Assembly: GCF_024158035.1 (NCBI RefSeq)
Contig: NZ_JAMZEK010000003.1
Coordinates: 496,001-560,000, forward strand
DNA length: 64,000 nucleotides
Source: Dyella lutea
Lineage (GTDB): Bacteria; Pseudomonadota; Gammaproteobacteria; Xanthomonadales; Rhodanobacteraceae
Direction: 5' to 3'
Shown: positions 9,515 to 50,831 of the stretch, piece by piece
How the letters are laid out: every line of letters begins with the position of its first letter
How positions within the stretch are numbered: position 1 is the first letter of the stretch
Notes under the pieces: generated by a model
Told to the model about the DNA's origin: nothing
Databases searched by the model: none
What the model saw: only the letters and a program-made list of their open reading frames with translations
Program-made: the position numbers and the translations under genes

Positions 9515-9528
9515 TTGACCACGGTCAA
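9515..9528 (-). promoter_or_regulatory. FNR-type box for the dodecin gene
   Basis: TTGACCACGGTCAA is a near-perfect dyad. Reading leftwards, TACCGT follows after 21 bp, which is the geometry of a class II FNR promoter centred near -41.5. The dodecin ATG lies 60 bp from the box. Confidence 0.75.
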
Positions 9529-9579
9529 CAAGCCCGGCCGCGCGCGGTGGCGCCGTTCCGGGCGCGCCGGACATGAGCC

Positions 9580-9593
9580 TTGACTTCGATCAA
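9580..9593 (+). promoter_or_regulatory. FNR-type box for the PRPP-synthase-like gene
   Basis: TTGACTTCGATCAA is followed 21 bp later by GACACT as a possible -10. The start codon is at 9653. This box and the dodecin box are only 51 bp apart and serve divergent genes. Confidence 0.75.
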
Positions 9594-9652
9594 CGGCGAC
9601 GCCGGCATCCGCCGGACACTCCCGCATCACGCCAACCACCGGAGGCAAGTCG

Positions 9653-10618
9653 ATGCCGCGGGAGATCAAGCTGTTCGGGCTGGGTGCCAGCCGCCCGTTG
9701 GCGGAAGCGATCGCGGCGGGGCTGGGCGTGCCGCTGGCGGCGATCGAGGAGCGCGAATTCGAGGACGGCGAACACAAGGCGCGACCGCTGGAGAGCGTGC
9801 GCGACGCCGACGTCTGCGTGGTGCATTCGCTCTATGCCGACGAGCAGCAGAGCGTGGAGGACAAGCTGTGCCGCCTGCTGTTCTTCCTGGCGACCGTGCG
9901 CGACCACGGCGCCGCGCTGGTCACCGCCGTGGTGCCGTACCTGTGCTACGCGCGCAAGGACCGCCGCACCCGGGCACTCGATCCGCTGGGTACGCGCTAC
10001 CTCGCGCAACTGTTCGAGGCGGTCGGCGTCGATCGGGTGATCACGCTGGAGACCCACAACCCGGCGGCGTTCGGCAACGCCTTCCGCTGCGGCGCCGACA
10101 ACCTGTCGGCTCATCGCCTGCTCGTCGCCGGGCTGACGCCGGAGCTGGGTGCCGCGGATGTCGTGGTGCTCTCGCCGGATGCCGGAGGCATCAAGCGGGC
10201 CGAAGCGTTCCGGCAACAACTGGCGGCCTCGCTGGGACGACCGGTGCAGTTGGGCATGATGGAGAAATGGCGCGGTGGCGGCGTACTCTCCGGTTCGACC
10301 TTGTTCGCACAGGTCGTCGGTTGCGACGTGGTGATCGTCGACGACCTGATCGGCACCGGTGGCACCGTGTTGAGGGCGGCGCATGCGGCCCGCGATGCGG
10401 GGGCCCGGGCGGTGCACGCAGTGGCCGCCCATGGCTTGTTCACGGGCGATGCCACCGTGGCCCTGGCCGACCCGGTGCTGGCCAGCCTGCGGGTCACCGA
10501 CAGCGTCCCGCCGTTCCGGTTGCGCGGGAGCGGGGTGCTGGCCAGGCTGAGCGTGCTGCCCGTCGCGCCGCTGTTCGTGCAGGCGGTCCGGCCGCCGGTG
10601 CCCGACGATGCGGCGTGA
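9653..10618 (+). CDS. Ribose-phosphate pyrophosphokinase-like protein
   Basis: The 321-residue protein has both tandem phosphoribosyltransferase-fold halves of PRPP synthase. The N-terminal half holds the catalytic-loop region VVPYLCYARKDRRTR, and the C-terminal half holds the PRPP-binding loop VIVDDLIGTGGT. It would convert ribose 5-phosphate and ATP to PRPP, possibly for nucleotide salvage together with the phosphoribosyltransferase at 15486. It is a divergent paralogue: housekeeping Prs proteins are near 310-315 residues and more conserved, so a stress-specific role is inferred. Its promoter carries an FNR-type box. Confidence 0.75.
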   Translation: MPREIKLFGLGASRPLAEAIAAGLGVPLAAIEEREFEDGEHKARPLESVRDADVCVVHSLYADEQQSVEDKLCRLLFFLATVRDHGAALVTAVVPYLCYARKDRRTRALDPLGTRYLAQLFEAVGVDRVITLETHNPAAFGNAFRCGADNLSAHRLLVAGLTPELGAADVVVLSPDAGGIKRAEAFRQQLAASLGRPVQLGMMEKWRGGGVLSGSTLFAQVVGCDVVIVDDLIGTGGTVLRAAHAARDAGARAVHAVAAHGLFTGDATVALADPVLASLRVTDSVPPFRLRGSGVLARLSVLPVAPLFVQAVRPPVPDDAA

Positions 10619-10654
10619 CCGGCGCATCCGTTTGCATCGGATCGGAATGAGCCG

Positions 10655-10676
10655 CACTCCCGCGCACGCGGGAGTG
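10655..10676. repeat. CACTCCCGCG palindrome
   Basis: A perfect 10-bp inverted repeat (CACTCCCGCG, CA, CGCGGGAGTG) lies between convergent genes. It has no U tract, so it is at most a weak bidirectional terminator. It resembles the ATTCCCGCG element at 46189-46208 and is probably one of the interspersed palindromes common in this order. Confidence 0.6.
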
Positions 10677-10681
10677 ACGCG

Positions 10682-11851
10682 CTAACCGGAGTCCCGACGG
10701 CTTGCCGGGTTGCGATGCGGATGTCCCCGGTTACGCAGGCCATCGATGTAGCCGCGTGCGCGAGCCAGGTAATCGCCGGCACGGGCGAGCCAGCGGCGAC
10801 GGGGACCGGTATCCGGATCGTCCAGGTGCCAGAGTGCGATCTTGGCGCGCACGAAGGCGTTGAGCGCCTTGTGGAACTCGATCAGGGCGCGCGGCGGATG
10901 GTCTGCGGTGCGTGCCCGATAGGCGGCGAACAGCCAGGCGTCGACCTCGCGATGCCCCAGCCGGTCGCACTCCATCGCCAGGAAGGCCAGTTCGTCGACG
11001 GGGTCGCGCAGCCGCAGCTCGCGGTCGAACTCGATGCAGTCGACGATGGTCGGCGGCGCGGTCAGGTAGACGTGCTCGGGACGCAGGTCGCCGTGTCCCT
11101 CGACGATGCGACGTTCGCGCGCGCGGGCCGCCAGGAGGTCGGCATGCGCGTCGAGGAAGTCGAGCAGCGCCTTCGCCAGGGCCTCGATCTGGTCGCGCGC
11201 CTGCCCGTAGCCGGGGCGGCACAGCCCCGCCGCCGTGCCGGTGATCCGGGTGCGCAGATGCCGCAGGTAGGCCCGGACGCTCCAGCGCGCACGCGGCCCG
11301 TCCCGGAACAGCGGCAGCAGTCGCGCGACCACCCGGCCGATCTGCATCGGCGTCACCGTCCCGGCGCGCAGGCGCTGTTCCAGCGAAAACGCCTCGGGCA
11401 GGCGCCGCATGTGCACCAGCCGGTCGATCGTCCGACCCTTCCCGTCCAGTGCCATGCGCCCCTCGGCGTCGATGGTCAGGCGGACCGTGCCGAGGTAATC
11501 GTCCGGTGCCAGGCGGCGGTTGAGGCGCACCTCGCGCAGGCAGTTGAGCCGTCGCGCGGCCGGTGTCGCGTAGTCGATGCGCTCGTGCCGGTAAGGCTTC
11601 TTCAGCTTGTAGACGTCGGACCCGGCAAGGAACAGCCAGGACATGTGCGTCTCCAACGACTCGACCCGGTCGACACGGCCGGGATAGCTCTCCGGCCGCT
11701 TCAGGAAGGCAAGCTTCGTGGCGAGGTCCGGTTCGTGGCGGAGATGCGGGGTGCTTCGCGACGAACGCTTGCCGGGATGCTGCGACAGCGTCGCGCCGGA
11801 ACGGATCGACTTCGACTCCCGCGACGATGGCCCGGGCACCGGGAAACTCAC
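10682..11851 (-). CDS. COG2187 family protein with aminoglycoside-phosphotransferase-like fold
   Basis: The 389-residue protein begins with the family block LATKLAFLKRPESYPGRVDRVESLETHMSW split across residues 42-71, then VYKLKKP. A kinase-like core follows with EGHGDLRPEHVYL, where HGD is the catalytic-loop motif, and IVDCIEFDRELR, the metal-binding aspartate region. In longer family members an AAA/gluconate-kinase-type domain follows; here it is absent, so the P-loop half is missing. I start it at the GTG at 11851, whose GTGA overlaps the hydrolase stop and has AGGGG upstream, indicating translational coupling. The substrate is unknown. Confidence 0.65.
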   Translation of the reverse strand: MSFPVPGPSSRESKSIRSGATLSQHPGKRSSRSTPHLRHEPDLATKLAFLKRPESYPGRVDRVESLETHMSWLFLAGSDVYKLKKPYRHERIDYATPAARRLNCLREVRLNRRLAPDDYLGTVRLTIDAEGRMALDGKGRTIDRLVHMRRLPEAFSLEQRLRAGTVTPMQIGRVVARLLPLFRDGPRARWSVRAYLRHLRTRITGTAAGLCRPGYGQARDQIEALAKALLDFLDAHADLLAARARERRIVEGHGDLRPEHVYLTAPPTIVDCIEFDRELRLRDPVDELAFLAMECDRLGHREVDAWLFAAYRARTADHPPRALIEFHKALNAFVRAKIALWHLDDPDTGPRRRWLARAGDYLARARGYIDGLRNRGHPHRNPASRRDSG

Positions 11852-12516
11852 GGCGCCCCTGCCCCCATGTGCGCGAGAAACCAGTCGCGTGCCAGCTCCG
11901 CCACCTGTTCGAGGGCGCCCGGTTCCTCGAACAGGTGGGTCGCTCCCGGAACGATCTTCAGGGCACGAACGCAGTGCATCTGCGCGAAGGCCTGGCGGTT
12001 CAACTCGAGCACTTCGCCGTCCTGCCCGCCAACGATCAGCAGCGTCGCCGCCTCCACCCGCGACAGGGCGGTTCCGGCCAGGTCCGGCCGGCCGCCGCGC
12101 GAAACCACGGCCTCGACCCGCCCCGCCTCCTCGGACGCCGCCATCAGGGCGGCGGCCGCCCCGGTACTGGCGCCGAACAGGCCCAGCGGCAACCGGCCCA
12201 CGTCGTCGCGACCGTCGAGCCAGTCGATCGCTTCGCCCAGTCGGCCGGCCAGCAGTTGGATATCGAAGACATGGCGCCGGTCGGCAGCCTCCTCCTCGGT
12301 CAGCAGGTCGAACAGCAAGGTGGCGATGCCGGCACGACCGAACGCCTCGGCGACCGCGTTGTTGCGCGGACTCAGCCGGCTGCTTCCGCTGCCGTGCGCG
12401 AAGGCCACCATGCGGTGTGCGAGCTCCGGAATGCGCAGCAGGCCTTCCAGCCGCCGCGCCGAGACATGCACCGTGCGCACCGCAACGGCGGCCGCATGCT
12501 GGATGGATCGGGCCAT
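11848..12516 (-). CDS. Dienelactone-hydrolase-type alpha/beta hydrolase
   Basis: The 222-residue protein has an alpha/beta-hydrolase fold with nucleophile elbow GLFGASTGAAAA (serine in GASTG), an acidic residue in GGQDGEV and a histidine in GATHLFEE, the complete catalytic triad in order. Related proteins are often fused to a phosphoribosyltransferase; here one is encoded separately at 15486. The ATG at 12516 is used because the transcript predicted from the box at 12579 begins after the longer in-frame start. It is coupled to the downstream COG2187 gene. Confidence 0.75.
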   Translation of the reverse strand: MARSIQHAAAVAVRTVHVSARRLEGLLRIPELAHRMVAFAHGSGSSRLSPRNNAVAEAFGRAGIATLLFDLLTEEEAADRRHVFDIQLLAGRLGEAIDWLDGRDDVGRLPLGLFGASTGAAAALMAASEEAGRVEAVVSRGGRPDLAGTALSRVEAATLLIVGGQDGEVLELNRQAFAQMHCVRALKIVPGATHLFEEPGALEQVAELARDWFLAHMGAGAP

Positions 12517-12578
12517 GGCGAGACTCTCCCTTCCGGTGGCAACGGCGGAAAGCGTGCGTGCTGGCACCGCGCCCCGTG

Positions 12579-12592
12579 CTGACCCAGATCAA
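12579..12592 (-). promoter_or_regulatory. FNR-type box for the hydrolase/COG2187 operon
   Basis: Read on the minus strand the box is TTGATCTGGGTCAG, with CACGCT as a -10 after 22 bp. The hydrolase start at 12516 lies downstream. Confidence 0.65.
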
Positions 12593-12612
12593 CATCGCCC
12601 CCCACCGGAACC

Positions 12613-12626
12613 TTGACCCAGGTCGA
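12613..12626 (+). promoter_or_regulatory. FNR-type box for polX
   Basis: TTGACCCAGGTCGA is followed after 21 bp by TAGCCT. The longest open frame of the PolX gene begins with a TTG inside this box, so that start must be wrong. Confidence 0.7.
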
Positions 12627-12678
12627 CACCGCCGGCCCGGTCGACGCTAGCCTGGAGCGGTCCATCGAGGGCGCCGCC

Positions 12679-14409
12679 GTGGTCGTCGACAACACCGCCA
12701 TCGCCGCCGCATTCGAGGAGATCGCCGATCTGCTCGAGCTGCAGCAGGCCAATCCTTTCCGCGTGCGCGCATATCGCAACGCGGCGCGCACCCTCGCCTC
12801 GTGGCCGGAAGAAATGAGCCTGTGGGCAGCCCAGGGACGCGACTTCGACGAGCTCCCCGGCATCGGCAAGGACTTGGCGGCGAAGATCGCCGAGATCCTG
12901 CAACGCGGCACCTGCGACCAGCTGGAGCGGCTACGCGCCAGCTTTCCGCGCGGCATCACCCACCTGCTGCAGATCCCCGGGCTCGGTCCACGCCGCGTGC
13001 ATGTGCTCTACCACGAGCTCGGCGTGCGCACGCCGCAGGAATTGCTGGACGCCGCCCGAGCCGGTCACGTCCAGGCTATCCCGGGATTCGGCGCGACCAG
13101 CGAGCGGCGCATTGCCGAGGCGGTGGCCGGCTATCTGGACCGTTCCCACCGCTGGCCGCTGGCACGTGTGGATGCCGCCGTGCAGGCCGTGCTCGCACAC
13201 CTGCGCGCCGGACCCGGCGTCGAGGATGTCGTGGTCGCCGGCAGCTACCGGCGCCGCCGCGACACGGTCGGCGACATCGACGTGCTGGTCGCCGGCTCGC
13301 GCGGGGGCAATGCGTGCAGGCGCCTGTGCGACTTCGAGCACGTCGCGCGCGTGCTGGCGCAGGGTCGGACCCGGGCCAGCGTGGTGCTGCGCGACGGCCT
13401 GCAGGTGGACCTGCGCGTGGTGCGCCCGGAGAGCTTCGGCGCCGCCCTGGTCTACTTCACCGGTTCCAAACCGCACAACATCGCGCTGCGGCGGATCGCG
13501 CAGTCGCGCGGGCTGAAGATCAACGAATACGGCGTGTACCGGGGCACCCGGCGCATCGCCGGCAAGACCGAGGCCTCGGTGTACGCCACGGTCGGGTTGC
13601 CCTGGATCCCGCCGGAGCTGCGCGAGGACCACGGCGAGATCGAAGCGGCACGCAGTCACGCCCTGCCCCGGTTGATCGAGCGCGACGACCTGCGCGGCGA
13701 TCTGCACGCGCACACCAGCGCCAGCGACGGCGCCGACAGCATGGAGGCGATGGCTGCGGCCGCCCGCGAGGCCGGCCTGGACTACCTGGCGATCACCGAC
13801 CATTCCAGCGGCCTGAAGGTCGCGCACGGCCTGGATGAAAAGCGCCTGCTGGCACAGATGGAGGCCATCGACCGGCTCAACGAGCGGCTGCGTGACATCG
13901 TCCTGCTCAAGGGCATCGAGGTGGAGATTCTCGCCGACGGCTCGCTGGACCTGCCCGATCAAGTGCTCGGACGGCTCGACCTGGTGGTCGGTGCCGTGCA
14001 CAGCGCCCTCGACCTGTCTCGCGAACAGCAGACCGCCCGCATCCTGCACGCCATGGACCATCCGCACTTCAGCATCCTGGCGCACCCGAACGGCCGCCTG
14101 TTCGGCACCCGCGGCGGCTGCGCGCTGGACATGGAGCGCATCGTCCGCCACGCCGCCGAACGCGGCTGCTTCCTCGAACTCAATGCGCAGCCGGACCGGC
14201 TCGACCTGTTCGACGTGCAGTGCCGCCTAGCCCGCGACGCCGGCGCCGCCGTGGCGATCGGCAGCGACGCGCACCGCGGCAGCGATTTCCACTGGCTGCA
14301 ACTGGGCGTCGACCAGGCGCGCCGCGGCTGGCTTCAGAAGGACGACGTGCTCAACGCCCTTCCGCTCGCCGCGTTGCGCAGGCGCCTGGCCGCGACCATG
14401 GGCAGGTAG
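12679..14409 (+). CDS. polX: PolX-type DNA polymerase/3'-5' exonuclease with PHP domain
   Basis: The 576-residue family-X polymerase is of the bacterial PolX type used in base-excision repair. An N-terminal helix-hairpin-helix region (FDELPGIGKDLAAKI, LLQIPGLGPRRVHVLY) is followed by the polymerase palm with GSYRRRRDTVGDIDVLV, whose two aspartates bind metal. The C-terminal PHP nuclease domain starts at GDLHAHTSASDGADS and continues through ITDHSSG and SDAHRG. The GTG at 12679 gives the normal family length and lies downstream of the predicted -10; the longer TTG start overlaps an FNR-type box. It suggests repair under the same stress regime as its neighbours. Confidence 0.88.
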   Translation: MVVDNTAIAAAFEEIADLLELQQANPFRVRAYRNAARTLASWPEEMSLWAAQGRDFDELPGIGKDLAAKIAEILQRGTCDQLERLRASFPRGITHLLQIPGLGPRRVHVLYHELGVRTPQELLDAARAGHVQAIPGFGATSERRIAEAVAGYLDRSHRWPLARVDAAVQAVLAHLRAGPGVEDVVVAGSYRRRRDTVGDIDVLVAGSRGGNACRRLCDFEHVARVLAQGRTRASVVLRDGLQVDLRVVRPESFGAALVYFTGSKPHNIALRRIAQSRGLKINEYGVYRGTRRIAGKTEASVYATVGLPWIPPELREDHGEIEAARSHALPRLIERDDLRGDLHAHTSASDGADSMEAMAAAAREAGLDYLAITDHSSGLKVAHGLDEKRLLAQMEAIDRLNERLRDIVLLKGIEVEILADGSLDLPDQVLGRLDLVVGAVHSALDLSREQQTARILHAMDHPHFSILAHPNGRLFGTRGGCALDMERIVRHAAERGCFLELNAQPDRLDLFDVQCRLARDAGAAVAIGSDAHRGSDFHWLQLGVDQARRGWLQKDDVLNALPLAALRRRLAATMGR

Positions 14410-14448
14410 GCGCACGTGCGGCGTCCGCAAGCCGTCCGGTGCCATTCC

Positions 14449-14462
14449 TTGATTGCCGTCAA
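14449..14462 (+). promoter_or_regulatory. FNR-type box for the CBS-flavodoxin-PRT operon
   Basis: TTGATTGCCGTCAA is followed after 21 bp by CAGGCT as the -10. The CBS gene begins at 14525. Confidence 0.75.
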
Positions 14463-14524
14463 GGTGACGATCGCGTCGGCGCGCAGGCTGCATCACGAGT
14501 CACTCCTGACCATGGGGTCGTGCC

Positions 14525-14974
14525 ATGCATGCCGCCGAAATCTGCACCCGCCACGTCGTCTACATCGACCGCAAGGCGTCCATCCGCGAGGCGGCGCAGA
14601 GCATGCGCAGCCACCACGTCGGCGCCCTGGTGATCACCGACCAGCCGAATGGCGAACGCGTTCCGGCCGGCATCATCACCGACCGCGACATTGCCATCGC
14701 CGTGGTGGCGGCGGGCATCCAGCCCGAAAACCTCATGGTCGAGGATGTGATGAACCGCAACGTCGCCACCTGCGCCGAGAGCGAGGACCTGTTCGACATC
14801 ATCACCACCATGCTCGCCCGGAGCGTGCGGCGGCTGCCGGTCGTCAACGACAAGGGTGGACTGGTCGGCATGGTCTCGTCCGACGATCTCTACGGTGCCC
14901 TGTCCACGCACCTGCGCATGCTGAGCCAGGCGCTGGCTCGCGAGCAGGTGCGCGAGATGGAAGTCCGCGTCTGA
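14525..14974 (+). CDS. Two-CBS-domain protein
   Basis: The 149-residue cytoplasmic protein consists of a CBS pair (Bateman module). The first repeat covers SIREAAQSMRSHHVGALVI and TDRDI; the second covers VARCAES-like VATCAESEDLFDI, RRLPVVNDKGGLVGMVSSDDL. Such modules bind adenine nucleotides and sense energy charge. It is the first gene of a three-gene operon, nine bases ahead of the flavodoxin, under an FNR-type promoter. It has no effector domain and probably acts through a partner. Confidence 0.85.
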   Translation: MHAAEICTRHVVYIDRKASIREAAQSMRSHHVGALVITDQPNGERVPAGIITDRDIAIAVVAAGIQPENLMVEDVMNRNVATCAESEDLFDIITTMLARSVRRLPVVNDKGGLVGMVSSDDLYGALSTHLRMLSQALAREQVREMEVRV

Positions 14975-14983
14975 GCCGCCGCC

Positions 14984-15481
14984 ATGAAGCCACGCATCCT
15001 GCTCGCCTATTACTCGATGACCGGTCACACCCGCGACATCGCCGAGGAACTGCGCTCGGCGCTGCAGGCCGACGTGGAGGAAATCCGCGAGCCGCATCCG
15101 CGCCGCGGCCTGCGCGGTGTACTGCGCGCCCTGTTCGACGCGGTCCTGCGCCGCGAACCGCCGATCGGGACGCCGCGCCACGATCCTGCCGTCTACGATC
15201 TGCTCGCGATGGGTGGCCCGGTGTGGGCCGGTCGCATGGCCTCGCCGCTTCGCAGCTACGCCAGGCAGCTGGCCGAGCGTGCCCCACGTGTCGCGTTCTT
15301 CTGCACCGAGGGCGGACGCGGCGCCGAGCAGGCGTTCGACGATCTCGGCAGGCTCTGCGGCAAGATCCCGGAGGCCACCCTGGTCGTGGATGCGCAACAC
15401 CTTCCACCGGGACTGCACCTGGATACCCTGCAGCGGTTCGTGGCGAAGCTCGGGAGAGAACGGCCCACCCCGGGCCATTGA
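14984..15481 (+). CDS. Flavodoxin family protein
   Basis: The 165-residue protein has a flavodoxin-like Rossmann fold. The phosphate-binding loop YYSMTGHTRDIAEEL near the N-terminus binds FMN phosphate, and AMGGPVWAGRMASPLRSY contacts the isoalloxazine ring. It should be a soluble one- or two-electron carrier or an NAD(P)H:quinone reductase-like protein. It lies between the CBS gene and the phosphoribosyltransferase with gaps of nine and four bases, so the three are one transcript. Confidence 0.8.
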   Translation: MKPRILLAYYSMTGHTRDIAEELRSALQADVEEIREPHPRRGLRGVLRALFDAVLRREPPIGTPRHDPAVYDLLAMGGPVWAGRMASPLRSYARQLAERAPRVAFFCTEGGRGAEQAFDDLGRLCGKIPEATLVVDAQHLPPGLHLDTLQRFVAKLGRERPTPGH

Positions 15482-15485
15482 AGCC

Positions 15486-16115
15486 ATGCGCGGCCTGCCC
15501 TTCTTCGACCGGATCGAGGCCGCCCGCCTGCTGGTCGAGCGGCTCGGCGCCTACCGCGATGCCCATGCGCTGGTACTCGCGATCCCGCGCGGCGCCGCGC
15601 CGATGGGCCGCGTCATCGCCGACGCCCTGCACGCGGAGCTGGACGTGGTGCTGGTGCGCAAGCTCGGCGCGCCGGGCAACCCGGAGCTCGCCATCGGCGC
15701 GGTCGACGAGTCGGGGACCGTGCACGTGGCCGAATACGCCGCCACCACCGGTGCCGACCACAGTTATCTCGGACACGAGCGCGCGCGACAGCTGCAACGC
15801 ATCAGGGAGCAGCGCCGCCGCTACAGCCGGGAACGCGCCCCCATCGATCCGGCCGGGCGCGTGGTGATCGTGGTCGACGATGGCCTGGCCACCGGCGAGA
15901 CCATGGCCGCCGCGCTCGCCGCCGTGCGACGGCAGGCACCGGCGAGACTGGTCTGTGCGGTACCGGTGGCTTCCGGCGACGCGCTCGCGCGCGTGCGCTC
16001 ACTCGCCGACGAGGTCGTCTGCCTGCACGTCCCGCCGCACTTCGGGGGCGTGGGGGCGTTCTACCTGCGCTTCGACCAGGTCGAGGACGAGGACGTCGTG
16101 GCGGCGCTGCGCTGA
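15486..16115 (+). CDS. Phosphoribosyltransferase family protein
   Basis: The 209-residue type I phosphoribosyltransferase-fold protein has the PRPP loop VVIVVDDGLATGETM, preceded by the conserved VLAIPRGAAPMG and VLVRKLGAPGNPELAIGAV blocks of the family found beside dienelactone-hydrolase proteins. The base substrate is unknown. The ATG at 15486 follows the flavodoxin stop directly. PRPP could come from the Prs-like enzyme at 9653, which is under the same type of promoter. Confidence 0.8.
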   Translation: MRGLPFFDRIEAARLLVERLGAYRDAHALVLAIPRGAAPMGRVIADALHAELDVVLVRKLGAPGNPELAIGAVDESGTVHVAEYAATTGADHSYLGHERARQLQRIREQRRRYSRERAPIDPAGRVVIVVDDGLATGETMAAALAAVRRQAPARLVCAVPVASGDALARVRSLADEVVCLHVPPHFGGVGAFYLRFDQVEDEDVVAALR

Positions 16116-16130
16116 GCCGCGCAGGCGGGG

Positions 16131-16427
16131 TCAGTCGCGCGCGCGGCTGCCGAGCAGACCGATCAGGAACGCCGCGGCCGCCACGCCACCGAGAACGATC
16201 CAGGGCTGCTCGTGCACGTACCGGTTGCCGCGGTCGACGGTCCGGCGCACACGGTCGCCGGCATCGCGTTCGAGTCGGGAAACCCGCTCGCGGATCCCGC
16301 GCAGGCGGGTGTGGACGTCCTCGGCACTCTCCCCGGTCGCGGCCGCCACGTCCTTCATCAGCTGCTCGACGTCGCTGGCGATCGCGTTCAGGTCGCCCTT
16401 CAGGTATTCGGCGTGCACATGTGCCAT
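16131..16427 (-). CDS. ElaB/YqjD/DUF883-type inner-membrane protein
   Basis: The 98-residue protein has an amphipathic, coiled-coil-prone N-terminal two thirds (LNAIASDVEQLMKDV, RERVSRLERDAGDRV) and a single C-terminal hydrophobic segment WIVLGGVAAAAFLIGLLG. This is the architecture of YqjD/ElaB, which tether ribosomes to the inner membrane in stationary phase in E. coli. A ribosome-related role would fit the hibernation factor at 25173. No FNR-type box was found upstream. Confidence 0.7.
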   Translation of the reverse strand: MAHVHAEYLKGDLNAIASDVEQLMKDVAAATGESAEDVHTRLRGIRERVSRLERDAGDRVRRTVDRGNRYVHEQPWIVLGGVAAAAFLIGLLGSRARD

Positions 16428-16519
16428 GGCTGGTCTCCGGTTCTCATCAAGCAGGGGTGTGGTGCTGCAAGGTCTGGGAGCTGCCCGCACAGGCCCCGGG
16501 CAGCGGAACAGTCCGGGGC

Positions 16520-17278
16520 TCAGGCCGCCGCCAGCGGCAGGTCGTTTCGGTCCGAGCGCACCGCCTCCCTGCCCCAGACTGCCGAGCGCTCGAGCTGTGC
16601 CGGATCGCGGATATGGATGCTGCGGCCCTGCACGTCGACCGCTCCGATCCGGTTGAGGCGACTCAGCCCTCGACTGACGGTTTCCAGCTTCAGCCCCAGG
16701 TAGCTGGCTATGTCCTCGCGTGTCATGCGCAGCACATACTCGCTGGAAGAGCAGCCGCGCTCGGCATAGCGCCGACCGAGCTCCAGCAGGAACGTGGCCA
16801 AGCGCTCCTCCGCCCTCGCCGAGCCCAGCAGCAAAAGGGTCTGCTGTTCGTACTCCACCTCGTGGGACAGTTTGCGGATCAGCGCCACGTAGAGCCCGTG
16901 GATATCGATGCCGACCTGCTCCAGATGCGGTAGCGGGATTTCCAGCGCCACGCTGTACTCGAGCATGCGGATCGACGTGGGGTGAACCCCGGCATCGAGT
17001 GCATCCAGCCCCAAAAGGTCCTCGGCCATGTAAAAGCGGGTGACCTGCTCGCGCCCGTCGGCGCCCGGGCGGGTCGCCTTGGCCGAGCCGCTGGTGAGCA
17101 GGAACAGCGAGCGGAAAGGCGCGCCGGCATAGGTCAGGTGGGCACCCTTCTGCAGCCGGTGCACGTGCAGCGCGAAGCGGGAAGCCACGTTGATCAGGGC
17201 CCGGCCAAAGGCGCTGCGATGCAGGGTGTCGTCAGCCAGCTTGCGTGCATCGGACAGGGAGGCGATCGTCGCGGACAT
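16520..17278 (-). CDS. Crp/Fnr family regulator without Fe-S ligands
   Basis: The 252-residue regulator has an N-terminal cyclic-nucleotide-binding-type beta barrel (LQKGAHLTYAGAPFRSLFLL), a dimer helix, and a C-terminal winged helix. Its recognition helix reads ETVSR at residues 199-203, matching the E-x-x-S-R residues with which FNR reads TTGAT. The only cysteine is C176, so the four iron-sulfur ligands of FNR/ANR are absent and the protein is more like DNR or FixK in this respect. It is the natural candidate to bind the eleven boxes around it. The ATG at 17278 was chosen; upstream sequence is non-homologous. No box precedes its own gene. Confidence 0.85.
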   Translation of the reverse strand: MSATIASLSDARKLADDTLHRSAFGRALINVASRFALHVHRLQKGAHLTYAGAPFRSLFLLTSGSAKATRPGADGREQVTRFYMAEDLLGLDALDAGVHPTSIRMLEYSVALEIPLPHLEQVGIDIHGLYVALIRKLSHEVEYEQQTLLLLGSARAEERLATFLLELGRRYAERGCSSSEYVLRMTREDIASYLGLKLETVSRGLSRLNRIGAVDVQGRSIHIRDPAQLERSAVWGREAVRSDRNDLPLAAA

Positions 17279-18257: not shown

Positions 18258-18261
18258 CGCC

Positions 18262-20304: not shown

Positions 20305-20326
20305 CCGCTGGCACGTCGGAGACGGA

Positions 20327-21307
20327 TCACGGCACAAGTACCGCAGAGCCCTGAAAACGGCCGTGGCGGAGGTCGTCAAGCGCCTCGTTCGCCTGCTCCA
20401 GCCGATAGCGCAGCGTGGTGGCGCGCACGCAGGCGCGCCTCGCCTGGTCGAAGAACGCCCGCGCGTCCGACCGGGCCAGGTTGGTCACCGATACCAGTTC
20501 CCGTTCGCCCCACAGCCATTGGTATGGCATCGACGGAATGTCGGACATGTGGATGCCGCCGCAGACCACGCGCCCGCCCTTGCGCACTGCGCGCAGGGCC
20601 CGCGGAACAAGCTCGCCGCTGGGCGCGAAGATGATCGCCGCGTCGAGCAACTCGGGCGTCGCCGCGTCGGAATCTCCGGCCCAGGCAACGCCGTGCGCAC
20701 GAGCGAAATCCTGTGCCGCATGGTCGCCCGGTCGGGTGAACGCCAGCACGCGACGCCCCTGGTGGCGCGCGATCTGGGTCATCAGGTGCGCCGCGCCGCC
20801 AAAACCGTAGATGCCGATCGTGCCGGCCTCGTTGGTTCGGGCCAGCGCGCGCCAGCCGATCAGGCCCGCACACAGCAGCGGCGCGCAGGCCACCGGGTCG
20901 ACCTCGCCCAGCGGAATGCAGAAGTCGGCGCGGGCGATCAGGTGGCTGGCAAAGCCCCCGGGCCGCGTGTAGCCGGTGAACTGCGGTGCGTCGCAGAGAT
21001 TCTCGCGCCCAACGCGACAGTAGTCGCACACGCCGCAGGTCGCCCCCAGCCAGGGCACGCCCACGCGCTGGCCAGGAACCAGCCCCCCGACGTCCGGGCC
21101 TACGCATTCGACCCACCCGACCACCTCGTGACCTGGCACGACCGGCAACACCAGCCCCGGCAACTCGCCATCGACCACGTGCAGGTCGGTGCGGCAAACG
21201 CCGCAGGCCTCCACGCGGATCCGTGCCTCGCCGGGTCCCGGCACGGGATCCTCGTGATGGCGCAGCACCAGCGGCTGCCCGGCCGCCTCGAGCGTCATCG
21301 CGCGCAT
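20327..21307 (-). CDS. Zinc-dependent alcohol dehydrogenase
   Basis: The 326-residue medium-chain dehydrogenase oxidises alcohols or reduces aldehydes with NAD(P). Catalytic zinc ligands lie in EACGVCRTDLH and VPGHEVVG; the structural zinc site is the four cysteines of ATCGVCDYCRVGRENLC. The nucleotide-binding glycine motif is GIYGFGGAAH. It lies nine bases after the UspA gene and is therefore in its operon, under the FNR-type box at 22218. An anaerobic fermentative role is inferred. Confidence 0.85.
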   Translation of the reverse strand: MRAMTLEAAGQPLVLRHHEDPVPGPGEARIRVEACGVCRTDLHVVDGELPGLVLPVVPGHEVVGWVECVGPDVGGLVPGQRVGVPWLGATCGVCDYCRVGRENLCDAPQFTGYTRPGGFASHLIARADFCIPLGEVDPVACAPLLCAGLIGWRALARTNEAGTIGIYGFGGAAHLMTQIARHQGRRVLAFTRPGDHAAQDFARAHGVAWAGDSDAATPELLDAAIIFAPSGELVPRALRAVRKGGRVVCGGIHMSDIPSMPYQWLWGERELVSVTNLARSDARAFFDQARRACVRATTLRYRLEQANEALDDLRHGRFQGSAVLVP

Positions 21308-21316
21308 GACCTGTCC

Positions 21317-22144
21317 TCAGTGATGCAGCAGGACGGGCAGCGAGGCGTGCCACAACACATGCCGCGTGGCACCGCCGAGCACCCATTCGCTGAACCGGCT
21401 GCGACCGAACGCCCCCATCACCAGCAGGTCGGCGTCGAACCGGCGCGCATGCTCCAGCAGCGCCTCGCCGACCTCCTGGCCGGTCGTGGTCAGGTCCTGC
21501 GAACGCGGCTGGATGCCGTGCCGGAGCAGATAGCCGTCGATGTCGAAGGGCGGCTTCCAGACCACGTCGTGGTGAGGCTCCCTCGGCAATCCGCGCACCA
21601 GCAGCACCTCCTCGGCCCGCTGCAGCAACGGCAGGGCCGCGTGCACGGCCCGGACAACCTCGGGTGCGCCGTTCCAAGCGATCGCGATGCGGGCCAGCGA
21701 GACACCGCCGACCGGTCGTGGCGGCACCACGACGCACGGCACGCCGACCTGCAGGACCAGTCCGGCGATGTCTTCCGGCTTCGACCAGGTGCGGTCGTCG
21801 TCGCGTTCCAGGACCAGCAGGTCGTGCCAGCAGGCGATCTGCGCCAGGGCGTCGGCCAGGTTGCCCTGCGCGACCATCCAGCTGGCCTGCCCAACGCCCA
21901 GGCTGGCCGCCCAGTCCACGAACGCCTCGCGGGCACCAAGTGCGCTCGCCTCGAGGATCCGCGACATGTCCGTAAGCGTCTCGATCACGTCGGGCGTGCC
22001 GAACTCCGGCGTCGCGTACAGCGGCGAGGGGTAGACATAGACCCCGGTCACCGCGGCCTGGACCAGTGCGGCCAGTCGCACGCCGTACTGCGCATCGCGG
22101 GACCAGCTGTCGAAGCGGGCGGTGTTGACGAGAATGTCGTGCAT
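21317..22144 (-). CDS. Universal stress protein, tandem UspA domains
   Basis: The 275-residue protein has two UspA-like halves (about 1-140 and 150-275). The second half ends in LLVMGAFGRSRFSEWVLGGATRHVL, with the G-x2-G-x9-G(S/T) nucleotide-binding signature in recognisable form; the first half is degenerate. Such proteins support survival under anoxia or starvation. The ATG at 22144 aligns with the start of its paralogue across the divergent promoter region. The alcohol dehydrogenase follows on the same transcript. Confidence 0.85.
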   Translation of the reverse strand: MHDILVNTARFDSWSRDAQYGVRLAALVQAAVTGVYVYPSPLYATPEFGTPDVIETLTDMSRILEASALGAREAFVDWAASLGVGQASWMVAQGNLADALAQIACWHDLLVLERDDDRTWSKPEDIAGLVLQVGVPCVVVPPRPVGGVSLARIAIAWNGAPEVVRAVHAALPLLQRAEEVLLVRGLPREPHHDVVWKPPFDIDGYLLRHGIQPRSQDLTTTGQEVGEALLEHARRFDADLLVMGAFGRSRFSEWVLGGATRHVLWHASLPVLLHH

Positions 22145-22217
22145 GGCAGGCTCTCCCTGTCCACCGTCGTACGACGGTGCCCGGCTCGCACCGTGGGCCA
22201 GTTCGTCGTGCCGCTTG

Positions 22218-22231
22218 GTGATCCAGATCAA
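22218..22231 (-). promoter_or_regulatory. FNR-type box for the uspA-adh operon
   Basis: On the minus strand the box is TTGATCTGGATCAC, with CACGGT as the -10 after 22 bp. It lies 31 bp from the box for the divergent Usp gene. Confidence 0.65.
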
Positions 22232-22262
22232 GGTTGCGGTGCGGGTCGATCCCGCTCCGAGG

Positions 22263-22276
22263 ATGACCTGGATCAA
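22263..22276 (+). promoter_or_regulatory. FNR-type box for the second uspA
   Basis: ATGACCTGGATCAA is followed after 21 bp by CATGCT as the -10. The predicted transcript starts near 22311, which excludes the ATG at 22299 as the start codon of the Usp gene. Confidence 0.65.
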
Positions 22277-22349
22277 ACCGACCGGCGCCGGCCCACGCAT
22301 GCTGGCGACCGCCCGGCTCCCCGTGCGGTCGGTATGCGAGGTGCGTGAG

Positions 22350-23156
22350 GTGCGCGACATCGTCGTCCACAGTCCGGACTTCCGGCATTGGCAGGCCGGC
22401 GTGCGCTATGCGGCCGAGCTCGCCGCGGACCTCCATGCCGGGCTGGTCGGCCTCTACGCCGCCACGGCGTGCACATCGGTGGCCGGGCCGCCGCAACTGG
22501 TGCAGGAAGCCCTTGCCTATGCACAGGACGAACTGCAGCAGGCGATGCTGGCCGGCCCTGCCTTTGCCAGCTGGGCAGCGACGCTTGGGGTACACCAGGC
22601 CCGTTGGCAGGTGGCGCTGGGGACGGTGGCCGACGCGCTGGTACAGGCCGGTCACTGGAACGATGTGGTGGTTCTGCAGGGCCACGCAACGCCCGCTTCC
22701 GCCGAGGAGCGGCCGTTGCTGGAGGTCCTGCTGTCGGGTACCTCCTGCATCCTGGTTCCCGGGACGGGCGTCTCGCCCGGCCAGGTGATGCGCGCCGTGG
22801 TGGCGTGGGACGGCAGCCCCGCATCGAATCGCGCCCTGCATGGTGCGTTGCCGCTGCTGGTTGCGGCCGATTCGGTCCGTCTGCTCGCCGCTGCGCCGCC
22901 ATACGCCCGTGGCCGCACCCGGTTCGATCCCCTGGACCATCTGCGCAGGCATGGCGTGCGGGTCACCCGTGTGGAAACCCTGGAGGAGACCGGCGAGGCC
23001 GCCGGCGAGCAACTGCTGGCTTGTGCTGCCGGAGATCGTGCGGACCTGCTGGTGCTGGGTGCCAGCGGCTGCCGGCGCCCCGGTGGATGCAGCTTCGGTG
23101 CTACTACCCGGGCGGTGCTGACGCGCAGCCACCTGCCGCTGTTCCTCCGCCACTGA
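22350..23156 (+). CDS. Universal stress protein, tandem UspA domains (second copy)
   Basis: The 268-residue protein is a divergent paralogue of the UspA protein encoded on the other strand. The second half carries DLLVLGASGCRRPGGCSFGATTRAVL, the Usp nucleotide-binding region with an unusual arginine and cysteine insertion. The GTG at 22350 is chosen because MRDIVVHSPDF aligns with the paralogue's MHDILVNTARF, a GAGG site sits eight bases upstream, and earlier candidates fall in or before the predicted promoter. Confidence 0.75.
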   Translation: MRDIVVHSPDFRHWQAGVRYAAELAADLHAGLVGLYAATACTSVAGPPQLVQEALAYAQDELQQAMLAGPAFASWAATLGVHQARWQVALGTVADALVQAGHWNDVVVLQGHATPASAEERPLLEVLLSGTSCILVPGTGVSPGQVMRAVVAWDGSPASNRALHGALPLLVAADSVRLLAAAPPYARGRTRFDPLDHLRRHGVRVTRVETLEETGEAAGEQLLACAAGDRADLLVLGASGCRRPGGCSFGATTRAVLTRSHLPLFLRH

Positions 23157-23172
23157 GCGCTCACCGCACACC

Positions 23173-23186
23173 TTGACCGGCATCAA
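23173..23186 (+). promoter_or_regulatory. FNR-type box for ftsH
   Basis: TTGACCGGCATCAA is followed after 22 bp by TAGCGT as the -10. The FtsH start codon is at 23244. Confidence 0.75.
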
Positions 23187-23243
23187 TGGGGCGGCCTGCC
23201 GCAGGCGCTAGCGTGATCCGACCGACCGCGCCGCGGAGGCGGC

Positions 23244-25103
23244 ATGAAACGCGATCGCCCGATCAATGCCTGGTACTTCGTCGCCGCCCTGCTCACGGTG
23301 GTGGCGCTGCAGTTCCTGTTCGCGGGCAGCGCCGTCGAAACGGTGCCCTACAGCCGCTTTCAGGCCGAACTCAAGGCCGGCGACATCGCCGAGGTGACCG
23401 TCTCCGGCGACAGCATCCGGGGCAGCTATCGCCAGCCGGCCGCGGATGGACGGCCGCGCCGGTTCCAGACCACCCGAGTTGCGCCCGAGCTGGCCAAGGC
23501 ACTGTCCGATGCCGGGATCACCTACAGCGGCAAGGCATCGCCGGGCTGGGGCGAGCGCATGCTCACCTGGCTGCTGCCGCCGCTGCTGTTCGTCGGCATG
23601 TGGCTGCTGCTGATGCAACGCATGCCGGGCAGCGGACGAAGCAGCGCTCTGTCGATCGGCAAGAGCAAGGTGAAGATCTACCTGGAGAAGTCGATCGCCA
23701 CCACCTTCGACGACGTCGCCGGCGTGGACGAGGCGAAGGAGGAGCTGCGCGAGGTGATCGCGTTCCTGAAGGATCCCGTCGGCTACGGCCGGCTCGGCGC
23801 ACACGTGCCCAAGGGCGTGCTGCTGGTCGGCCCGCCGGGTACCGGCAAGACCCTGCTCGCCCGCGCGGTGGCCGGCGAGGCGGGGGTGCCGTTCCTGTCG
23901 ATCAGCGGCTCGGAGTTCGTCGAACTGTTTGTCGGCGTCGGTGCCGCCCGCGTGCGCGACCTGTTCTCCCAGGCCGGCGAACATGCCCCGTGCATCATCT
24001 TCATCGACGAGCTGGACGCGCTGGGACGTGCCCGCGGCGCAGCGCCGGTGAGCGGCGGGCAGGACGAGAAGGAGCAGACGCTCAACCAACTGCTCACCGA
24101 GCTGGACGGTTTCGACGTGCACAGCGGCGTGGTGCTGCTGGCGGCCACCAACCGGCCGGAAATCCTCGATCCGGCCCTGCTCCGCGCCGGGCGCTTCGAT
24201 CGCCAGATCCTGGTGGACCGGCCGGATCGGCCCGGGCGCCTGGCGATCCTGCGCGTGCACGCGCGCAAGCTGAAGCTGGACGCGGACGTGTCGCTGGATG
24301 ACGTGGCCGCGCTCACCGCCGGCATGACCGGCGCCGACCTCGCCAACCTGCTCAACGAGGCCACCCTGCTCGCGACCCGGCGCGGCGCCGGGGCCGTGGA
24401 GCCGGCCGATCTTACCGGCGCCATCGAGCGCGTGGTGGCCGGCCTGGAGAAAAAGACCCGGGTGCTCAGCCCGCGCGAGCGTCGCACCGTCGCATACCAC
24501 GAGACCGGCCATGCGCTGGTGGCGATGGCCCTGCCCGGCAGCGACCCGGTGCAGAAGGTATCGATCATCCCCCGCGGCATCAGCGGGCTCGGCTACACCC
24601 TCCAGCGCCCGACCGAAGACCGCTTCCTGATGTCGCGCGACGAGCTGGCCGACAGGATGACCGTCTTGCTCGGCGGCCGCGCGGCCGAGATGCTGGCGCT
24701 CGGCGACATGTCCACCGGCGCCGCCGACGACCTGGCCCGGGCGACCGGCATCGCGCGCGGCATGGTGACCCACTACGGCATGGCCCCCGAGCTCGGCCAG
24801 ATCACCTACGAGGAAGAAGCCGGGCCCCTGCTCGGCTACCCGCTGGATGCCTGGCAGCCTCGCCGCTACAGCGAGGCCAGCGCGGCGGCGATCGACCGGG
24901 CGGTGCGCGAGCTGGTCGAGCAAGCCTTCATGCGGGCCCGCGCGATCCTCGTGCGCGACCGCGACGCGCTGGAACGGGTCGCCGAGGCGCTGCTCGCCCG
25001 GGAAACCCTGTCCGGTGCCGAACTGGCCACCATGGCCGCCCCGCCCGTGGCGCCCACCGGATCGGAGGACGTCGGCCATCCCCCGCTCGCAGCGCGGGGA
25101 TGA
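23244..25103 (+). CDS. FtsH-type AAA+ membrane metalloprotease
   Basis: The 619-residue protein is an inner-membrane ATP-dependent protease. It has two transmembrane helices (about residues 12-30 and 108-128) around a periplasmic domain, the Walker A motif GPPGTGKT at 196-203, Walker [10 protein letters not shown], the second region of homology [19 protein letters not shown], and the zinc site HETGH at 419-423. Most genomes of this group have a separate housekeeping ftsH beside rlmE, so this stress-cluster copy is probably an additional, condition-specific protease. An FNR-type promoter lies 57 bp upstream. Confidence 0.92.
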
Positions 25104-25113
25104 TCTGGATCAA
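25100..25113 (+). promoter_or_regulatory. FNR-type box for the hibernation factor gene
   Basis: ATGATCTGGATCAA overlaps the ftsH stop codon. GAGCAT follows after 21 bp as a -10, and the hibernation factor starts at 25173. Confidence 0.7.
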
Positions 25114-25172
25114 ACCGCCTGTCGCGTGCCGTTCGAGCATGGGCGACACCATCCATCCCGCGGAGTCCCGCC

Positions 25173-25532
25173 ATGAGTTTCGTGATCGAAGTGAGTTTCC
25201 TCGACATGCCGCCATCGAAGGCGCTTCACGAGGACATCTCGCGCCACGCGCTGCAACTGCAGCACTTCGCCCCGACCCTCGCCGACTGCCGGGTGACGGT
25301 CCGTCACAGCGAGATGCGCCATCACCAGGGCAACCACTTCCACGTACTGGCACGGGTCAGCCTGCCCGGCGGCGGCCAGTTCGAGGCCGGCCGGGAGACC
25401 GGTAACGACACCCATGCCGATGCCTACGTGGCGGTGCGCGACACCTTCGCCGCGCTGCGTCGCCAGTTGCAGGACTTCATGCGCATCCGCCGTGGCGACG
25501 TGAAACACCACGATCGCCCGGATGCGCGATGA
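25173..25532 (+). CDS. HPF/RaiA-type ribosome hibernation protein
   Basis: The 119-residue protein has the beta-alpha-beta-beta-beta-alpha fold of short ribosome hibernation factors (LHEDISRHALQLQ, DCRVTVRHSEMRHHQGNHFHV, AYVAVRDTFAALRRQL). These proteins bind the 30S decoding site and silence ribosomes. It lacks the C-terminal dimerisation domain of long HPF. The extra histidines in the central strands are unlike housekeeping HPF, so it is probably a low-oxygen paralogue; it has its own FNR-type box. Confidence 0.78.
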   Translation: MSFVIEVSFLDMPPSKALHEDISRHALQLQHFAPTLADCRVTVRHSEMRHHQGNHFHVLARVSLPGGGQFEAGRETGNDTHADAYVAVRDTFAALRRQLQDFMRIRRGDVKHHDRPDAR

Positions 25533-25549
25533 GCTCGCCTGCCGGGCGA

Positions 25550-25563
25550 TTGATGCAGGTCAA
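25550..25563 (+). promoter_or_regulatory. FNR-type box for the baeRF-like gene
   Basis: TTGATGCAGGTCAA is followed after 21 bp by TAGCAT. The start codon is at 25631. Confidence 0.75.
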
Positions 25564-25630
25564 GCCGCATCGCCCGGGCGCGCCTAGCATGGAGCCACCA
25601 CATCGCTTGGCCCAAGGGGCGGGAGACACC

Positions 25631-26074
25631 ATGACGACAACCTGGATTCTCGTGGCGGATGCGGCCCGGGCGCGGGTCTTCGAATCGGAGCGGCGCGGCG
25701 GTCCGTGGACGGTGGTGTCGTGCCTTGCCAATCCGGACGGAAGAGCGCCGGGCCGCGACGCCACCACCGAGCGTGCACCACGCACCATGGAGAGCGTCGG
25801 CTCGGCGCGGCATGCGATCGAACCGCACACGACGCTGCGCGACAAGAGCAGCGAGCGCTTCGCACGCATGCTGCGGGACGAGCTCGATCGCGGCTGCACC
25901 GAGCGTCGCTGCGAGCAGCTGGTGCTGGTGGCCCCGCCGCGTTTCCTCGGCACGCTGCACGGGGTGCTGGACAAGGCGCTGCGCGAACGGATCAGCGGCG
26001 AGCTGCAGAACGACTTCACCGCGCTGGAGGAACCAGATGTCCGCGAGCGCGTGATGCGCGAACTGCCGGTCTGA
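25631..26074 (+). CDS. Host-attachment-protein/baeRF family protein
   Basis: The 147-residue protein belongs to the family first named for Agrobacterium host attachment (AtsE-like) and later grouped with bacterial release-factor-like (eRF1-type) domains. Recognisable blocks are TWILVADAARARVFE at the N-terminus, FARMLRDELDRG, and QLVLVAPPRFLGTLHGVL. A ribosome-associated role would fit its neighbours HPF and YqjD. The ATG at 25631 starts the conserved domain; a longer frame from 25529 overlaps the FNR-type box. Confidence 0.78.
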   Translation: MTTTWILVADAARARVFESERRGGPWTVVSCLANPDGRAPGRDATTERAPRTMESVGSARHAIEPHTTLRDKSSERFARMLRDELDRGCTERRCEQLVLVAPPRFLGTLHGVLDKALRERISGELQNDFTALEEPDVRERVMRELPV

Positions 26075-26128
26075 ACGAGCCGGACGGACGCACCGCATGC
26101 GGCGGTGCGTCCGCGGCGCATGGCGCAT

Positions 26129-26590
26129 TCATTTCACCGCGATGCGCTGGCTGCTTCCATTCGGCTTCTTCGGCAAGGTCAGCGTGAGCACGCCACCCTC
26201 GTAGCGGGCCTCGGCCTTGCTGCTGTCGACTTCGGCCGGCAGGCTGAAGGCGCGGAACACGCGTCCGACGTAGCGTTCGTTCACCAGCGCATGCTCGTTC
26301 TCCTTCTTTTCGCTGCTGTGCCTGGCTTCGGCGCTGATTGCCACCTGGCCGCCGTCCACCGAGATCTCGATGTCGTTCTTGTCGACGCCGGGAATATCGG
26401 CCTTGACCACGTAGGCCTCGTCTTTTTCGGACACGTCCAGGCGCATCTCCGGGATCATGTCCACGTCGCGCCAGAACGCCCGGCTGGCCATCGGACGGAA
26501 CACGTCGTCGAAGGCGCCGAGCGGAAAGCCGGCGAGCGGATCGATGCGGGCGGGACTCTTGAAGGGGTTCCAGTGTGTGAGGGTGCTCAT
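26129..26590 (-). CDS. Hsp20/alpha-crystallin small heat-shock protein
   Basis: The 153-residue chaperone has the alpha-crystallin domain from MRLDVSEKDEAYVVKADIPG through RVFRAFSLPAEVD and ends with a short C-terminal extension LPKKPNGSSQRIAVK. It forms oligomers that hold unfolded proteins. The ATG at 26590 is preceded by a GGAGGAACC site. Its promoter has an FNR-type box instead of an obvious heat-shock element, and it closes the stress cluster. Confidence 0.9.
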   Translation of the reverse strand: MSTLTHWNPFKSPARIDPLAGFPLGAFDDVFRPMASRAFWRDVDMIPEMRLDVSEKDEAYVVKADIPGVDKNDIEISVDGGQVAISAEARHSSEKKENEHALVNERYVGRVFRAFSLPAEVDSSKAEARYEGGVLTLTLPKKPNGSSQRIAVK

Positions 26591-26672
26591 GGTGGTTCCT
26601 CCGGGTTGGGCGATGGCGCAACGGCTCGGGTCACGCCAGCAGGCAATCTGCGTCCGCCGCAGCGGTGTGGTG

Positions 26673-26686
26673 TTGATTCCGGTCAA
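26673..26686 (-). promoter_or_regulatory. FNR-type box for hsp20
   Basis: On the minus strand the box is TTGACCGGAATCAA, with CAGATT as the -10 after 22 bp. It is the last box of the cluster. Confidence 0.7.
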
Positions 26687-50828: not shown

Positions 50829-50831
50829 GTC

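Follow-up and report, generated by a model that had tools for sequence, protein, structure and literature searches.

The window analysed here is a 64-kb stretch of the Dyella lutea genome (positions 496001-560000 of contig C3 of genome G000, 4.40 Mb in total), and coordinates are those of the window unless a contig is named. It contains an island of stress-related genes, among which lie the genes of an FNR-family regulator, an OmpR-family response regulator and a hybrid histidine kinase (the trio), and whose promoters carry eleven FNR-type boxes (anaeroboxes). Gene names are taken from Pfam and NCBIfam matches. The terms genus, congener and family, as applied to the genomes compared, are kinship labels assigned computationally; the regulator match of Dyella ginsengisoli LA-4, a member of the Rhodanobacteraceae according to NCBI, is 88% identical in its best segment. 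The trio and the repeat upstream of the regulator gene are the following:

16520-17275, minus strand: FNR-family regulator without CxxC..C, recognition helix ETVSR, FixK-like
17347-17371, minus strand: K-box-like operator GTTACATGCCGTTACACAAGGTTAC, 72-96 bp upstream of the regulator's presumed ATG
17568-18257, plus strand (start approximate): OmpR-family response regulator, FxkR-like
18262-20304, plus strand: hybrid histidine kinase PAS-(weak GAF)-HisKA-HATPase-REC, PAS FixL-like, hFixL-like

The regulator matches FNR and FixK2 structures in sequence searches. The motif ExxSR characterizes the recognition helix of FNR-type proteins and is present here as ETVSR, while the N-terminal cysteine motif CxxC..C of the oxygen-sensing iron-sulphur (Fe-S) cluster was not found in this protein. 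The earlier note had taken the gene for an FNR-type regulator; family and recognition helix bear this out, but the missing cysteine motif means that it is not an Fe-S FNR, and a role as FNR-type sensor is rejected. As in the cluster-less FixK subfamily, CxxC..C is absent from all 30 homologues compared (the best family homologues, one per genome, from 146 genomes with a match among 197 searched). The genome carries three further CRP-family genes above the Pfam cut-off: two Fe-S FNR paralogues (C1:248655 and C3:731673), both with the CxxC..C motif and an ETVSR helix, and a Crp/Clp-like gene without the motif.

The repeat upstream of the regulator gene, on the gene's own strand, provides the only matches to GTTAC-N5-GTTAC in the window, and two of the three matches in the whole genome. 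According to the passages available from PMC7888657 and PMC4999443, the K-box bound by FxkR is GTTACA-N4-GTTACA, located upstream of fixK, and FixK lacks a cysteine cluster. A K-box upstream of an FNR-family gene is also what is found here, and the arrangement is strongly conserved: of the 30 homologues, 29 are preceded by GTTAC-N5-GTTAC on the coding strand and none on the other, and 300 resamples of the upstream sequences gave 0.0 K-boxes on average. When half-repeat spacings from 2 to 11 were tried, a spacing of 5 gave 29 cases, a spacing of 6 one, and all others none. The thirtieth homologue (L041) has a degenerate form of the K-box. No K-box was found upstream of the two Fe-S paralogues. 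The 3-kb locus of the homologues includes a kinase in 28 of 30 cases and a response regulator in one more (29/30 in total); the homologue with neither begins 192 bases from the end of its contig.

The kinase is a hybrid protein with PAS and receiver domains, as is hFixL, and has a weak, below cut-off GAF match between PAS and HisKA. Its PAS domain has 10jx, a multi-sensor kinase, as closest structure, followed by the haem-PAS domains of FixL and DosP, and the proximal histidine that is the haem ligand of FixL is kept in all 14 kinases compared. With respect to the response regulator, the best 25 plasmid rows among the matches listed comprise 22 from Sinorhizobium or Ensifer, two from Variovorax and one from Aminobacter. 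When the S. medicae response regulator is used as query, that of the window is the best of 17 in this genome. A tree joins the trio and rhizobial response regulators (94/88, below the star threshold), apart from the eight own paralogues used; it has several long branches, its deeper part is unsure, and its rhizobial members are candidates by position rather than records named FxkR.

The three genes are adjacent in S. medicae and S. meliloti and lie within 8 kb in R. leguminosarum; a perfect K-box stands upstream of the FNR-family/FixK-like gene in four rhizobial loci (R. leguminosarum, S. medicae, S. meliloti and an Ensifer plasmid). The Aminobacter stretch has no perfect K-box and no FNR-family gene is shown in it. 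In Variovorax the order is response regulator, kinase, Crp/Fnr. The trio is carried by the Variovorax megaplasmids L119, L137 and L138, and genes for universal stress proteins (Usp), BON proteins and alcohol dehydrogenase (ADH) are annotated as an island around it in L119 and L138. Of the boxes with at most one mismatch, 11 of 13 are phased, in the sense defined below, in the three Variovorax stretches, against a single one of eight in the R. leguminosarum stretch.

The promoters of the island share the pattern TTGAY-N4-RTCAA, and a box is called phased when xAxxxT starts 21 or 22 bp beyond it. The eleven boxes are listed below with the strand of the gene served, the -10 hexamer and its spacing (G003, G029 and G045 are genomes compared; PRPP, phosphoribosyl pyrophosphate; PRTase, phosphoribosyltransferase; HPF, ribosome hibernation factor):

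9515-9528, minus strand: anaerobox TTGACCGTGGTCAA, dodecin; -10 TACCGT at 9488-9493, spacing 21; box and phased -10 in 4/4 congeners
9580-9593, plus strand: anaerobox, PRPP-synthetase-like gene; -10 GACACT at 9615-9620, spacing 21; kept in G003
12579-12592, minus strand: anaerobox, one mismatch, alpha/beta-hydrolase-like gene and the gene behind it; -10 CACGCT at 12551-12556, spacing 22; kept in G003
12613-12626, plus strand: anaerobox, one mismatch, PolX; -10 TAGCCT at 12648-12653, spacing 21; kept in G003
14449-14462, plus strand: anaerobox, CBS-flavodoxin-PRTase operon; -10 CAGGCT at 14484-14489, spacing 21; 4/4 congeners
22218-22231, minus strand: anaerobox, one mismatch, Usp-ADH operon; -10 CACGGT at 22190-22195, spacing 22; 4/4 congeners
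22263-22276, plus strand: anaerobox, one mismatch, plus-strand Usp; -10 CATGCT at 22298-22303, spacing 21; 4/4 congeners
23173-23186, plus strand: anaerobox, FtsH; -10 TAGCGT at 23209-23214, spacing 22; phased in G003
25100-25113, plus strand: anaerobox, one mismatch, HPF/S30AE; -10 GAGCAT at 25135-25140, spacing 21; 4/4 congeners
25550-25563, plus strand: anaerobox, Host_attach/baeRF12 gene; -10 TAGCAT at 25585-25590, spacing 21; 4/4 congeners at 21 or 22
26673-26686, minus strand: anaerobox, Hsp20; -10 CAGATT at 26645-26650, spacing 22; 4/4 congeners at 22 towards Hsp20

All eleven had been proposed in the earlier note, with at most one or two changes each, and all were recovered where it had placed them, six with no mismatch and five with one; one minor correction is that Hsp20, on the minus strand, is the best target for the box at 26673. 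The phasing claimed there was also reproduced in full: towards the assigned gene xAxxxT begins at offset 21 in seven boxes and 22 in four (11/11), and no other offset between 0 and 59 is found in more than one box. The chance of meeting xAxxxT at either offset from a random place is 0.047, and the probability of 11/11 is about 1e-15, or about 6e-11 after correction for both strands and 15 offset choices. This constant spacing, against a 4.7% background, agrees with the class II geometry of FNR/FixK-type promoters that had been suggested (a box and a -10 starting about 22 bp on, centred near -41.5); under a class II reading, transcript starts would be expected about 41 bp from the box centres.

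Boxes are also denser here than elsewhere. At up to two mismatches the window has 52, versus 26.9 +/- 4.8 in shuffles. At up to one mismatch there are 12 in the module taken for density counts (9000-27000, 18 kb; the listed boxes span 9515-26686) versus three in the remaining 46 kb, and the reversed pattern used as control gave none in the module and two in the rest of the window. The twelfth box of the module, at 9397, which the earlier note does not list, lies within the dodecin gene and is unphased; it was excluded before the phasing counts, as were its counterparts within the same gene at 14848 in G045 and 12952 in G029. The whole genome has 23 perfect boxes versus five for the control, and 232 versus 100 at up to one mismatch. 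Six of the 23 perfect boxes fall within 9515-26686, that is, in 0.39% of the genome, where about 0.09 would be expected.

The earlier note had read these 17 kb as one dedicated module and had proposed a genome-wide comparison of density and phasing. The clustering is indeed strong, but 17 perfect boxes lie elsewhere and 14 of them are phased in at least one direction (three are not; about 9% would be expected in either direction), so that the island forms the dense centre of a larger regulon, set apart by box density alone and not by phasing. Neighbours of the outside perfect boxes include acetate kinase, an ATP-synthase-like subunit, PhaC, another Usp and a P-type ATPase. Two perfect phased boxes at C3:329191 and C3:335913 (L008 and L009), 6.7 kb apart and near the acetate kinase, ATP-synthase-like subunit and PhaC genes, perhaps mark a second anaerobic-survival cluster.

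Within the promoters, the half-sites are the most conserved part. In the eleven promoters compared in up to four congeners, 365 of 368 half-site bases agree (99.2%), versus 247 of 276 middle bases and 1449 of 2300 flanking bases (63%). Phasing at 21/22 in either direction is found in 25 of 26 pooled congener boxes and in 11 of 15 boxes from three members of other genera. The gene order of the island is preserved in three congeners. G000 and G003 have both the genes from prs to polX (9653-14409) and FtsH (23244-25103), but neither was recovered from the G045 and G029 stretches; island genes thus seem to be gained or lost together with their own boxes. The G045 stretch, which yielded no such FtsH, has a box with one mismatch at 23822 that is unphased. 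Other genera of the family have related islands with phased boxes and part of the same gene set. Regions centred on the ADH gene were compared in 18 genomes, out of 36 that have an ADH match among 117 searched: they contain 97 boxes with at most one mismatch, 73 of them phased; 68 are perfect, and 55 of those are phased. Two of the 18 regions lack any phased box, and in nine the trio regulator is in view, mostly amid Usp, CBS, ADH or Host_attach genes.

Besides the trio, the genes of the island are:

9216-9455, minus strand: dodecin
9653-10618, plus strand: ribose-phosphate diphosphokinase-like (PRPP synthetase, prs)
10682-11785, minus strand: open reading frame without Pfam or NCBIfam match, kept in G003
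11848-12510, minus strand (start approximate): alpha/beta hydrolase/dienelactone-hydrolase-like
12688-14409, plus strand (start approximate): DNA polymerase X with PHP domain (PolX)
14525-14974, plus strand: two-CBS-domain protein
14984-15481, plus strand: flavodoxin-like
15480-16115, plus strand (start approximate): PRTase
16131-16490, minus strand: DUF883 protein
20327-21307, minus strand: zinc alcohol dehydrogenase (TIGR02822)
21317-22150, minus strand (start approximate): Usp
22330-23156, plus strand (start approximate): Usp
23244-25103, plus strand: FtsH-family AAA protease
25173-25532, plus strand: S30AE/HPF, 119 aa
25600-26074, plus strand (start approximate): Host_attach/baeRF family 12, release-factor-like
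26129-26600, minus strand (start approximate): Hsp20 small heat-shock protein

The stress and dormancy set recognized in the earlier note is thus confirmed, with dodecin, PRPP synthetase, PolX, CBS, flavodoxin, PRTase, two Usp, ADH, FtsH, HPF/S30AE, baeRF12/Host_attach and Hsp20. The product of 10682-11785 is presumably kinase-like, of the aminoglycoside-phosphotransferase type. A plus-strand open reading frame at 10715-12616 was discarded, since it has no Pfam match and the conserved genes are on the minus strand instead. The release-factor-like Host_attach/baeRF12 gene has a box in 4/4 congeners and is seen again close to the trio in other genera, a hint that its part in dormancy may be connected with translation.

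Considering these features together, it is probable that the window holds an island for survival at low oxygen, governed by a three-step relay that works like hFixL-FxkR-FixK; the circuit of kinase, response regulator and K-box did not figure in the earlier note. The hybrid kinase would sense oxygen, or another haem ligand, through its FixL-like PAS domain and would phosphorylate the OmpR-type response regulator. This protein would bind the K-box, whose conservation points to an operator, and raise the divergent cluster-less regulator, which in turn would bind TTGAY-N4-RTCAA near -41.5 and activate the class II dormancy promoters, as their observed geometry and conservation suggest. The output of such a relay would consist of hibernation, proteostasis, Usp and ADH genes. 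We infer the low-oxygen control of the island from the sequence. At lower oxygen the two Fe-S FNR paralogues would probably join at the boxes; they may share them as FnrN does in R. leguminosarum, to judge from the passages of PMC7888657. Upstream of the regulator homologues, an anaerobox with at most one mismatch is present within 420 bp in 17 of 30 cases (among L024-L048), and where a perfect K-box is present as well (16 cases), the anaerobox begins 33-45 bp ahead of it in 12, an arrangement suggesting joint control by FNR proteins.

Several results weigh against a relay of this kind. The S. medicae FixK-like protein, used as query in this genome, matches an Fe-S paralogue first (75.9 bits) and then the window's regulator (59.8), and the best NCBIfam model of the regulator is Fnr, below cut-off (159.3 bits vs 228; the FixK model gives 69.8 vs 300), so that by best hit the regulator is not a FixK orthologue. 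These data point to an output regulator that was replaced or strongly diverged while the K-box was retained. The margin of the S. medicae response-regulator match is modest (236 vs 212 bits), and no anaerobox was found upstream of the regulator itself in the window's genus. Among the 69 K-box matches listed in 58 family genomes, at least 24, in at least 20 genomes, are directly upstream of a listed regulator match (by-eye comparison), but 45 do not adjoin a regulator among the matches listed. Because the reversed control is commoner than the K-box in the same 58 genomes (177 vs 69, summed by hand), the motif alone is not enriched genome-wide; its position is what is striking. The repeat has one base changed in S. 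fredii, and no perfect K-box was found in any of the three Variovorax stretches. Searches of 369 genomes across the class, made at strict cut-offs and therefore not counted against the relay, returned matches to the regulator from the window's genome alone and matches to the kinase, with at most three candidates scored per genome, from that genome and from G014, a member of the family; absence elsewhere cannot be concluded from either search.

It is quite possible, if somewhat short of an even chance, that the island is activated chiefly by one or both Fe-S FNR paralogues, in the way that Anr activates Usp genes of P. aeruginosa, the local regulator being secondary or serving other sites; this is not fully exclusive of the relay. 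The boxes suit any FNR-family protein, both paralogues have the cluster motif and the ETVSR helix, and besides the phased boxes outside the island (14/17) an excess over the control is found in 30/30 related genomes searched, some of them without a match in the regulator search. Moreover, nine of the 18 ADH-centred regions have no trio regulator within 20 kb, and seven of these still have phased boxes. However, a regulator missing within 20 kb may still be encoded further away: two of the nine (G042 and G024) carry a regulator match with a K-box elsewhere. The trio also occurs together with boxed Usp, ADH and CBS genes in several genera, and in R. leguminosarum at 1% oxygen it is hFixL-FxkR-FixK, not FnrN, that drives the anaerobox genes tested, as described in the passages of PMC7888657.

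A relay that is real but senses a signal other than oxygen (redox state, nitric oxide, light or a metabolite of the cytosol, perceived by the PAS or the GAF-like region), which the boxes would then report, is rather unlikely. The distal Arg220 of FixL is kept in none of the 14 kinases, being Y in eight and F, M, G, L, H or Q in the others, so that the PAS domain may have a different ligand or be a redox sensor; the weak GAF match and the closest PAS structure, 10jx, annotated merely as a multi-sensor kinase, agree with such a view. The haem-ligand histidine in 14/14 kinases, the FixL and DosP structures that come next and the resemblance of the controlled genes to known low-oxygen sets speak for an oxygen signal instead. 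The idea that chance alone produced boxes and phasing in high-GC intergenic DNA has practically no likelihood and is rejected: the control pattern occurs too (5 perfect and 100 at up to one mismatch in the genome), but neither the 11/11 phasing nor the half-site conservation would follow from it, and the 21/22 peak recurs in congeners and other genera.

With the oxygen-responsive relay as the preferred reading, the closest known system is hFixL-FxkR-FixK(f) of Rhizobium and Sinorhizobium. Both have a hybrid kinase with a FixL-like PAS, an OmpR-type response regulator, a cluster-less FNR-family output, a K-box upstream of the regulator gene and anaeroboxes at the targets. The system described here differs in belonging to a gammaproteobacterium, in the GAF-like region and missing distal arginine of the kinase, in an output that by best hit is not a FixK orthologue, and in local targets that are dormancy and stress genes and not cbb3 oxidase or nif.

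In function, judging from the passages of the papers cited, the nearest systems are the Burkholderia lxa islands (PMC6127331, PMC9104464) and the control of Usp genes by Anr/Fnr (PMC5934665). The lxa locus of Burkholderia cenocepacia, likened here by description, also clusters low-oxygen-induced stress genes, six Usp among them, and an Anr/FixK-like CRP-family protein has been proposed as its regulator (PMC6127331, PMC9104464); in contrast, the homologue of that regulator (BCAM0049) in B. dolosa is described as being under FixLJ, with a LuxR-type FixJ (PMC5234846). FNR-type proteins activate Usp genes in Herbaspirillum (PMC5934665) and Pseudomonas (PMC6127331), and the FNR site of the H. seropedicae fnr1 promoter, centred at -42, is taken as class II (PMC5934665), but these are one-component sensors and the passages of both papers describe no local relay. 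The Variovorax megaplasmid island shares the trio amid Usp, BON and ADH genes and the phased boxes, and differs in lacking a perfect K-box in 3/3 stretches. NmpRSTU of Myxococcus xanthus is likewise an oxygen-responsive relay over CBS and Usp genes, though with an NtrC-like regulator and a protoglobin kinase, according to the passages of PMC11841059.

The origin of the hFixL-FxkR-FixKf cascade has been placed in the ancestor of the Rhizobiaceae (PMC4999443, in the passages available). The papers retrieved on FxkR, the K-box, hFixL and fixK bear titles on rhizobia, legume symbiosis, phytoremediation or plant microbes. Among the matches listed, the titles, abstract openings and passages searched gave no account of a similar circuit in Gammaproteobacteria, and titles and abstract openings no description of it in Dyella, Rhodanobacter, Xanthomonas or Stenotrophomonas. 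Because the same K-box is found upstream of 29/30 gammaproteobacterial homologues, a wider and older, or transferred, circuit is suggested. We give even chances to a broader view, in which the relay with its K-box is not an invention of the Rhizobiaceae but a portable oxygen-signalling cassette of alpha- and gammaproteobacteria (betaproteobacterial Variovorax has a trio arranged alike, though with no perfect K-box). Its conserved core would be the K-box and the response regulator, its FNR-family output would have given way to another relative that is cluster-less independently, and the cassette would govern a dedicated dormancy island in this gammaproteobacterial family. A low-oxygen relay resembling that of nitrogen-fixing rhizobia has apparently been rewired to dormancy genes; for a Dyella-like soil bacterium, it would link oxygen by a directly testable route to ribosome hibernation, proteolysis and Usp proteins, and for similar Usp islands elsewhere it predicts the controller.

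Outside the island, predicted genes at about 46303-53936 have a third-position GC content of 0.66-0.80, below that of most of the window, and this segment is perhaps acquired DNA.

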